Below the pieces are notes generated by a model. That model did not search any database, was not told the DNA's origin, and was given only the letters and a program-made list of their open reading frames with translations. Source: Solimonas variicoloris DSM 15731 (GTDB lineage Bacteria > Pseudomonadota > Gammaproteobacteria > Nevskiales > Nevskiaceae). From it: DNA of 64,000 nt. The translations under genes and the position numbers were made by a program. The stretch lies in contig NZ_KB907925.1 of NCBI RefSeq assembly GCF_000382285.1, forward strand, positions 124,001-188,000, read 5' to 3'. Of this stretch, positions 5,926 through 8,539 are shown in pieces; the first letter of the stretch is position 1, and every line of letters starts with the position of its first letter.

Positions 5926-6939
5926 CTAGCGCGGCCGGTGCAGGCTCGGCGCGCGGCCGGCGGCGCGGCGGAACGCGCGCGTGAAGTTGGAGGCGTCGGT
6001 GTAGCCGAGTTCGTGCGCGATCTGCGTGACGCTGAGGCCGCGCCGCAGCAGCTCGCAGGCACGCTCGTGCCGGACCTGCAGCGCCAGGATGCGGAAGCTG
6101 GCGCCCTCGCGCTTGAGGTAGCGGTCGAGCGTACGTGGCGAGAGGTTCAGCGTCTGCGCCAGCTCGCCGAGCGTCGGCATGCCGTCGGCGCTCTCGCGCA
6201 GCATCATCGCCACCCAGTCGCGCACCTGGCCGACCGCGACCACGTTGCGCAGCAGCTCGGCGCAGCGCGCTTCCGCCATCTTCAGCGCGCCGGCGTCCGC
6301 CATCGGCAGCGAATGGCGCGTGAAGTCGGCATCGAACAGCAGGCGCACGCCGGGCGAGCCGATGCTGCCGAAGTGACATTGCGCGCCGCCCAGCTCGGCG
6401 TAGCGCGCGACGTGCAGCGGCGCCGGCACCGAGAAATGCAGCTGGCTGGCCGGCATCTCGCCGCTGCTCAGCATCTTGATCTCCCAGTACGTGGCCGCGG
6501 CGATCGCCTCCAGATGAAACGCAAGGCAGGCGTGGCTTTGCGGAAACGCCGGCGCGTAGCGGATCTCGGTGCGGCCGCCGCCGGCGCGGTAGTGCATGCG
6601 AAAGCTCGGCATCACCAGGCGGAAGTAGCGCGCCAGCACGCGCAGCGCGTAGTCGATGTCGGGGCTGCTGAGCATCGCGAAGCCGACGCTGGCATGCGAG
6701 CTCGGCTTCAGCACGCGGCCGACGTCCAACGCCAGATCGGCCAGGCCCGGCATCGCCAGCACCTGCGCGACCAGCGCCTCGACCTGGCTCCAGCGCAGCT
6801 TCGCCTCCGGCAGCGCCATCGCCTCCGGCTTCAGGCGTACCGCGCGCAGCAGCGCGAGCACGTCGACGCCGCGCGCGGCGAGCACCTCGCCCATGCGCAC
6901 GTAGTAGCGCGCCGGCACTTCGGGGTCGTTGCGCTTCAT
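5926..6939 (-). CDS. AraC-family regulator, candidate alkB activator
   Basis: A 337-residue protein with an N-terminal arabinose-binding-type domain (PF12625 type, with FAMLSSPDIDYALRVLARYF and VRLLFDADFTRHSLP) and a C-terminal AraC double helix-turn-helix (LGELAQTLNLSPRTLDRYLK, then ITQIAHELGYTDASNFTRAF-like). The chosen ATG at 6939 starts at the domain boundary; upstream codons in frame would cover the operator region. Members of this group activate catabolic genes, and the divergent neighbour is the alkane monooxygenase. Two matched palindromes lie in the shared promoter region. Confidence 0.9.
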   Translation of the reverse strand: MKRNDPEVPARYYVRMGEVLAARGVDVLALLRAVRLKPEAMALPEAKLRWSQVEALVAQVLAMPGLADLALDVGRVLKPSSHASVGFAMLSSPDIDYALRVLARYFRLVMPSFRMHYRAGGGRTEIRYAPAFPQSHACLAFHLEAIAAATYWEIKMLSSGEMPASQLHFSVPAPLHVARYAELGGAQCHFGSIGSPGVRLLFDADFTRHSLPMADAGALKMAEARCAELLRNVVAVGQVRDWVAMMLRESADGMPTLGELAQTLNLSPRTLDRYLKREGASFRILALQVRHERACELLRRGLSVTQIAHELGYTDASNFTRAFRRAAGRAPSLHRPR

Positions 6940-6976: not shown

Positions 6977-7013
6977 CTGTCTGAAAAAGACAGGGTGATG
7001 TCAATAAATGACA
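6977..7013. promoter_or_regulatory. Two tandem TGTC-N7-GACA palindromes, candidate AraC operators
   Basis: TGTCTGAAAAAGACA at 6978-6992 (the arms extend to CTGTCT/AGACAG at 6977-6993) and TGTCAATAAATGACA at 6999-7013 share the pattern TGTC-N7-GACA. Their centres are 21 bp apart, two helical turns, so both would lie on the same DNA face. They sit between the divergent AraC gene and alkB, about 105-140 bp before the alkB start codon and 38 bp before the regulator start codon. Binding by the neighbouring regulator is inferred from position. Confidence 0.7.
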
Positions 7014-7117
7014 GGATGGCGGCCGGCGCCGCCACTCACAATGCTGGCGCATTCCAACAGTGCCGCGGCATTCGCATACGCACGCGGCATCCCAGACGGA
7101 TCGAAGGAGAATCGTTC

Positions 7118-8539
7118 ATGAATACCTCGACGCTCGCGGCCCCGCCGCAGTCTTGGCGCGACGGCAAGCGCTACCTCTGGCTGCTGAGCCCGCTGGTGCC
7201 GGTGCTGTCGCTGTCGTGCCTGCTGCTCGCGTACGCGACCGGCAACAACCTGTTCCTGTGGGGCATGCCGCTCTTCATGTACGGGCTGCTGCCGCTGCTC
7301 GACACGCTGATCGGCACCGACCCGACCAACCCGCCGGAAAGCGCCGTCGCCGGCCTCGAGCAGGACCGCTACTACCGCGCGATCGTGTTCGCGTACATCC
7401 CGGCACAGTTCGCCGCGACGATCTTCGGCGCCTGGCTGTTCGCGACCGGCGACTACGCCTGGTGGAACCTCGTCGCCATCGCGCTGAGCGTCGGCATCAT
7501 CAACGGCATCGCCATCAACACCGGCCACGAGCTCGGCCACAAGACCAACGCGCTCGAACGCTGGCTGGCGCGGCTGACGCTGGCGCCGGTCGCCTACGGC
7601 CACTTCTTCATCGAGCACAACAAGGGCCACCACAAGAACGTCGCCACGCCGATCGATCCGGCCAGCTCGCGGATGGGCGAGAGCTTCTGGGCCTTCCTGC
7701 CGCGCACCATGGTCGGCAGCCTGCGCTCGGCCTGGCACATCGAGGCCGAACGCCTGAAGCGCAACGGCAAGCGCGTGTGGAGCCTGTCGAACGAGAACCT
7801 GCAGTCGTGGGCGCTGACCGTCGTGCTGTTCGGCGCGGTGTCCCTGTGGCTCGGCCCGTGGGCGCTGCTGTTCCTCGTCGCGCAGGCCTTCTTCGGCGCC
7901 TCGCTGCTCGAGGTCGTCAACTACATCGAGCACTACGGCCTGCTGCGCCAGTACGACAGCAAGGCCGGCCGCTATGAGCGCTGCGCGCCGCGCCACTCGT
8001 GGAACAGCAACCACATCGTCACCAATCTGTTCCTCTACCAGCTGCAGCGTCATTCGGACCACCACGCCAACCCGACGCGCCGCTACCAGGCCCTGCGTCA
8101 CTTCGACGACAGCCCGCAGCTGCCGTCCGGCTATTCGTCGATGATCCTCGTCGCCTACTGCCCACCGCTGTGGTTCCGCATGATGGATCATCGCGTCGCG
8201 GCCCATCACCGCGGCGACCTGAGCAAGGCCCATCTCCACGCGCCGAAGCGCGCCGCGCTGCTGGCGCGCTGGCAGCGGGCGCCGCTGCGCGCGACGCCGG
8301 CCACCACCGCCACCGCGACGCCGGCCGCCGCACCGGCAGCGAGCGTCGCGGCCGACGCCGACCGCTACCTCTGCCCGAACTGCTCGTACGTCTACGATGC
8401 CGCCGCCGGTTGCCCGCACGAAGGCATCGCCCCGGGCACGCCGTGGGCGCGTCTGCCGGCGGACTGGCCGTGCCCGGCCTGCGCGGTGCGCGAGAAAGTC
8501 GACTTCCAGCCGCTGCCGGCGGTGGCCCGCGCCGCCTGA
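7118..8539 (+). CDS. alkB: Alkane 1-monooxygenase fused to rubredoxin
   Basis: A 473-residue fusion. Residues 1 to about 385 are a membrane di-iron alkane hydroxylase. After several membrane helices come HELGHK (137-142), EHNKGHH (166-172), NYIEHYG (His 272) and HSDHH (312-316), the full set of AlkB histidine boxes. After an Ala/Thr/Pro linker (about 385-412), a rubredoxin domain carries CPNC (419-422) and CPAC (452-455), the one-iron ligands. It should hydroxylate medium or long n-alkanes at the terminal carbon, with its own electron carrier; a rubredoxin reductase is still needed and is not in this window. AAGGAGA before the ATG supports the start. A strong terminator follows. Confidence 0.95.
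   Translation: MNTSTLAAPPQSWRDGKRYLWLLSPLVPVLSLSCLLLAYATGNNLFLWGMPLFMYGLLPLLDTLIGTDPTNPPESAVAGLEQDRYYRAIVFAYIPAQFAATIFGAWLFATGDYAWWNLVAIALSVGIINGIAINTGHELGHKTNALERWLARLTLAPVAYGHFFIEHNKGHHKNVATPIDPASSRMGESFWAFLPRTMVGSLRSAWHIEAERLKRNGKRVWSLSNENLQSWALTVVLFGAVSLWLGPWALLFLVAQAFFGASLLEVVNYIEHYGLLRQYDSKAGRYERCAPRHSWNSNHIVTNLFLYQLQRHSDHHANPTRRYQALRHFDDSPQLPSGYSSMILVAYCPPLWFRMMDHRVAAHHRGDLSKAHLHAPKRAALLARWQRAPLRATPATTATATPAAAPAASVAADADRYLCPNCSYVYDAAAGCPHEGIAPGTPWARLPADWPCPACAVREKVDFQPLPAVARAA

Follow-up and report, generated by a model that had tools for sequence, protein, structure and literature searches.

A 36-bp element at positions 6978 to 7013 of a 64,000-nucleotide stretch of the Solimonas variicoloris genome (this stretch, in its entirety, is referred to here as the window) is probably a single AraC/XylS-type operator, from which a dimer of the adjacent regulator would activate alkB, possibly on an alkane, and may repress its own gene. 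We put the probability of this reading at about 0.8. The element is a tandem direct repeat that is conserved together with one clade of regulators, lies at a fixed distance from a −10-like block, and covaries at one base with one regulator residue. Binding, dimer formation, activation, the inducer, and autoregulation are what we infer from these observations.

RESULTS

Two tandem sites between a regulator gene and alkB

A pattern search of the window found two exact TGTC-N7-GACA matches on the plus strand (i.e., TGTCTGAAAAAGACA at 6978 to 6992, centered on 6985, and TGTCAATAAATGACA at 6999 to 7013, centered on 7006), which confirms a sequence-only reading of this DNA that had placed two such sites 21 bp apart from center to center. 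The distal site, with an A-box (TGTC) and a B-box (GACA), is separated from the proximal site by a 6-bp gap (GGGTGA, 6993 to 6998). The length of this gap is invariant among relatives and its sequence is variable, with low information at positions 17 to 21. The minus strand of the proximal site includes the hexamer TTGACA. The window contains three matches to the single-site pattern (0.67 expected from shuffles), and the 4.12-Mb Solimonas genome contains 62, compared with 35 for a reversed control pattern; lone sites therefore mean little. The pair at 6978 to 7013 is the sole exact 21-bp pair in that genome.

On one side of the pair, an AraC-family regulator of 337 amino acids is encoded on the minus strand (5926 to 6939; ATG at 6939). 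Its N-terminal domain is PF12625 (Pfam; E value, 1e-24), and its C-terminal domain carries the two helix-turn-helix motifs of the AraC/XylS family (PF12833 [HTH_18] and PF00165). The Solimonas flava counterpart is 97% identical. Against NCBIfam profiles, the regulator scored 107 bits with CypR (NF053784; residues 3 to 335; cutoff, 500) and 124.5 bits with QhpR (NF049968; cutoff, 250), and it is thus an equivalog of neither. On the other side, the presumed target is encoded on the plus strand (7118 to 8539; ATG at 7118), an alkB-type monooxygenase of 473 amino acids with a fused C-terminal rubredoxin (PF00487 and PF00301) and the AlkB motifs HELGHK, HNKGHH, and NYIEHYG. The Pfam assignments uphold both gene identities that had been proposed for the flanks of the pair.

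Conservation of the pair with a regulator clade

S. flava, S. marina, S. fluminis, and two more Solimonas loci, all with the same divergent gene pair, retain the two sites at the 21-bp spacing. Across 85 genomes of the order, 19 exact pairs had the 21-bp spacing, compared with 4 across 30 other spacings, and the reversed control pattern gave no pairs in the same genomes. Among 369 genomes of the class, the 11 exact pairs in total (21 bp twice) were near background (7 control hits), the 21-bp spacing excepted. The regulator clade itself is rare outside the order; it was detected in 3 of the 369 class genomes at an E value of 1e-40, and two of these belong to the order.

We then took every relative of the regulator that was found in the order (70 in 50 genomes; E values up to 1e-40), together with its upstream DNA, and scored mismatches to the pair out of 16 positions. 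With a 6-bp gap, a perfect pair was present upstream of 16 relatives, a pair with up to two mismatches upstream of 38, with up to three upstream of 50, and with up to four upstream of 63; dinucleotide shuffles predicted 0.0 at three mismatches and 0.85 at four. When gaps of 0 to 19 bp were scanned in this set, no gap except 6 bp yielded more than three cases at two mismatches. Most of the pairs lie no more than 60 bp from the regulator start. Orthologs and paralogs of the regulator retain the pair upstream, always at 21 bp. An origin by chance, as repeats within an AT-rich part of GC-rich intergenic DNA, draws on the abundance of single sites (62 in the genome), but the exactly spaced pair is conserved across many genera, and neither shuffles nor reversed-pattern controls show its equal. 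Conservation refutes this explanation, to which we give practically no weight.

The first divergent gene encodes AlkB in 51 of the 70 relatives (all three tested motifs in 49). The other facing genes, which were named by reading of their sequences, encode CYP153 with ferredoxin, RND-type transporters, and alcohol-dehydrogenase-like, desaturase, and DUF1329-like proteins. Because the pair follows the regulator clade when it faces such varied genes, the element belongs to the regulator and not to alkB as such.

Several pairs occur in other settings. A perfect pair at G026:C215:35267-35302 (L099) lies directly before a gene that resembles, by eye, a haloalkane dehalogenase gene, without a clade regulator alongside, and is possibly a site acting in trans. 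Another perfect pair (L109; G068:C3:12016-12051) has a distant AraC gene (25% identity) on one side and a flavin-monooxygenase-like gene on the other, and the layout therefore reaches beyond the close clade. Four Solimonas genomes contain couples of 21-bp-spaced pairs of the TGTCTTCAAATGACC type on opposite strands, approximately 1.1 to 1.3 kb apart (G041:C1:801247/802416, G042:C5:26065/27227, G045:C1:1585160/1586430, and G046:C5:3717/4843).

Direct repeats rather than palindromes

The consensus of 68 sites is TG(T/G)C-N3-(A/T)(A/T)ATGAC(A/C), present twice in one orientation (i.e., TGKC-N3-WWATGACM). Half-site positions 10 and 11 are A in 64 and T in 62 of the 68 sites, respectively. A palindrome would need A and T at the mirror positions 5 and 6, where they were found in only 8 and 6 sites, respectively; the half-site is therefore asymmetric. 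The B-arm runs on to ATGAC, the mirror positions of the A-arm are not AT, and the TGKC and ATGACM arms are 11 bp, or roughly one turn of the helix, apart, as in an asymmetric A-box/B-box half-site. Arms that are palindromic in both halves were present in only 16 of the 68 sites. We rejected the palindrome reading on these asymmetry data; only one subclass of sites looks palindromic. The gap scan and the profile together describe two direct-repeat half-sites of approximately 15 bp placed approximately 21 bp apart, which is the arrangement of an AraC/XylS tandem operator. Given that the repeats are asymmetric and direct, each most likely represents the half-site of one monomer within a single AraC/XylS dimer site.

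The sequence-only reading had described paired palindromes forming a cooperative double-site operator. The arms are indeed inverted here, but the asymmetry among relatives makes direct repeats the better description. The operator remains tied to the adjacent AraC-type regulator by the conserved 21-bp spacing and by the 51 relatives that face alkB, and what does not stand is the notion of two cooperating palindromes.

Covariation between a regulator residue and the site

In an alignment of 64 regulators, column 317, which lies in the second helix-turn-helix motif, topped all columns for association with the last repeat base in both repeats. Alanine at this position goes with a final A, and serine goes mostly with C. 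Of 12 changes at residue 317, 4 share branches with a change of the base (P values of about 0.003 and 0.0002), as determined by simple branch counts on a tree for which only the N-terminal part of the regulators was used. Residue 272 (D or N) in the first helix-turn-helix motif pairs weakly with TGTC or TGGC (P values of 0.02 and 0.28), and relatedness explains much of this pairing. Under the usual MarA alignment, positions 317 and 272 would coincide with base-contacting positions. The regulator in the window breaks the rule for residue 317, with S317 and an A-type site. The clade association and the residue-base covariation point indirectly to the pair as a candidate binding site of the cognate AraC-family protein.

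These data also bear on whether the sites are two true palindromic operators that lie between the two genes by coincidence and serve a dimeric repressor of another family (TetR, GntR, or LysR type). Such families regulate alkB genes elsewhere (PMC8784404), and the arms are perfectly inverted here and in 16 of the 68 relatives. Nevertheless, the arms of most relatives are nonpalindromic at the same positions (e.g., TGGC..GACC), the site tracks the AraC clade even where the target is not alkB, it is absent at C1:265-268 kb, where the alkB pair lies, and its sequence covaries with a helix-turn-helix residue of the AraC protein. We consider an unrelated repressor very improbable.

Promoter geometry

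In an alignment of 48 distinct alkB promoters, a CAnnAT block was found at a fixed offset, approximately 22 to 23 bp past the proximal half-site (A2 and T6 together in 38 of 48; next best offset, 10). Outside the operator, strong blocks were limited to CAnnAT and a GG just behind the operator, and a C at offset 34 was frequent. The corresponding block in the window, CACAAT (7036 to 7041, plus strand), is the predicted −10 element of alkB, and the −10 spacing and the conserved C at offset 34 point to a transcription start at about 7048 (7047 to 7048, plus strand). With a 17-bp spacer, the −35 element would start with the final base of the proximal half-site; its match to the consensus is poor. 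The proximal half-site would thus adjoin the −35 region of alkB. The fixed distance to the −10-like CAnnAT in 38 of the 48 promoters puts the proximal repeat at about −35, at or overlapping the predicted −35 element, as in AraC/XylS tandem operators and at class II activator sites. This geometry favors activation of alkB.

The same regulator could act on the same repeat mainly as a repressor that is released by its ligand, as reported for VirS. On binding of a ligand, the related AraC-type protein VirS reportedly dissociates from its operator, and its target operon is induced (PMC13234193); moreover, the operator here overlaps the leader of the regulator's own gene. On the other hand, the repeat ends at −35 before a conserved −10 element and without a good −35 hexamer, which is activator geometry, and the AraC-type alkane regulators that have been characterized (AlkR, CypR, and APR1) activate their targets (PMC8784404 and PMC11784139). 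Repression as the main mode is therefore unlikely, although it is the alternative to which we assign the most weight.

The embedded minus-strand TTGACA is present in 21 of 51 alkB-facing sites. That it serves as the −35 element of the regulator's own promoter remains a guess because no good −10 element follows it in the window.

The pair in the rest of the genome

A relaxed search of the genome for the pair (up to three mismatches) returned the alkB site, two near-identical copies on C5 before a paralogous regulator and a transporter, and a weak match on C10 by a distant AraC gene; the control pattern gave no hits in this search. The tandem operator was absent at the other two alkB genes (C1:265716-268516). 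The latter locus (L094) is a tandem alkB pair with separate rubredoxins. At G000:C5:99423-114000 (L095), the two copies, each comprising a promoter of a paralogous AraC gene and the start of an RND/MMPL-type transporter gene, are approximately 9.7 kb apart, and the second regulator copy there appears truncated (132 amino acids).

A search for pairs before alkane-oxidation genes, which the sequence-only reading had proposed, thus recovered one exact pair, before alkB, and none at the other two alkB genes. An alkane regulon of several genes is not supported in this genome: the alkB-type pair occurs at this promoter only, and the next-best matches lie by the paralogous regulator and the RND-type transporter. 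The predicted regulon would be local, with one regulator for one promoter. Given that the other two alkB genes are without the operator, the regulator at 5926 to 6939 would control alkane oxidation at most partially.

DISCUSSION

We propose that a dimer of the PF12625/HTH_18 regulator occupies positions 6978 to 7013 with each monomer on one half-site. Within a monomer, the TGTC arm would be read by the first helix-turn-helix motif and the GACA arm by the second. The proximal half-site would end at about −35 of an alkB promoter that has a poor −35 element and a weak −10 element (CACAAT), from which we suggest that the bound, activated regulator recruits RNA polymerase in a class II fashion and turns on alkB-rubredoxin. 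The trigger is probably an n-alkane or a derivative. The 51 of 70 relatives that face AlkB, and some others that face CYP153, suggest a response to n-alkanes, and an alkane inducer is plausible by analogy with the family. The regulator's own transcription is probably under the same binding, because the operator begins 38 bp from its start codon.

The layout has precedents. The operators of XylS and MekR have a 15+6+15 arrangement (PMC4514859 and PMC5481539). The XylS/Pm operator of the TOL plasmid (TGCA-N6-GGNTA-N6-TGCA-N6-GGNTA) likewise consists of two direct repeats of 15 bp, 6 bp apart, each with an A-box and a B-box, and XylS acts there as a dimeric activator at a site overlapping that of RNA polymerase (PMC5481539 and PMC4514859). 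The box sequences, sensor domain, and inducers differ, and Pm uses RNA polymerase with sigma-32 or sigma-38. CypR, an AraC-type protein that activates CYP153 in Alcanivorax and Dietzia, is similar over the full length of its profile and regulates an alkane hydroxylase, and CYP153 is also the facing gene for some regulators of the present clade. In contrast, the main target here is alkB, and the score of 107 bits is far under the cutoff of 500; no site comparable to the tandem repeat was found described for CypR in the literature examined. The score with the QhpR profile (124 bits) is likewise below its 250-bit cutoff.

AlkR of Acinetobacter ADP1, an AraC/XylS protein, also activates an AlkB-type hydroxylase, and a repeat separates the two genes (PMC8784404). 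The alkR-alkM repeat of ADP1, likened here by description only, is described as inverted, unlike the tandem repeat. VirS of Mycobacterium tuberculosis is an AraC-type regulator of a monooxygenase operon, with a sequence match (8rcx) confined to the helix-turn-helix region. It differs in its target, a Baeyer-Villiger operon, and in a ligand that lowers operator binding; a search of PMC13234193 for the operator sequence of VirS found none. Literature searches for the exact motif with AraC, and for AraC and alkanes or alkB in Solimonas or Hydrocarboniphaga, found nothing. The layout is already known as the AraC/XylS tandem operator, and its use as an order-wide landing pad appears not to have been described before.

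A broader proposal is that the clade comprises order-wide activators of alkane hydroxylases (alkB and CYP153) that share one operator layout and a simple code, in which residue 317 sets the last base as A or C and residue 272 sets TGTC or TGGC. We advance it tentatively, as somewhat short of an even chance. If it is true, operator specificity would be predictable from protein sequence, and the clade would offer partly orthogonal alkane sensors as a ready-made set. A 2022 review noted how little is known about the regulation of alkane monooxygenases, a gap that hampers alkane biosensors (PMC8784404). The present analysis predicts the operator, promoter geometry, and regulator for approximately fifty alkB promoters in one order, and the candidate residue-to-base rule would turn the guess of an AraC gene next to alkB into single-base predictions.
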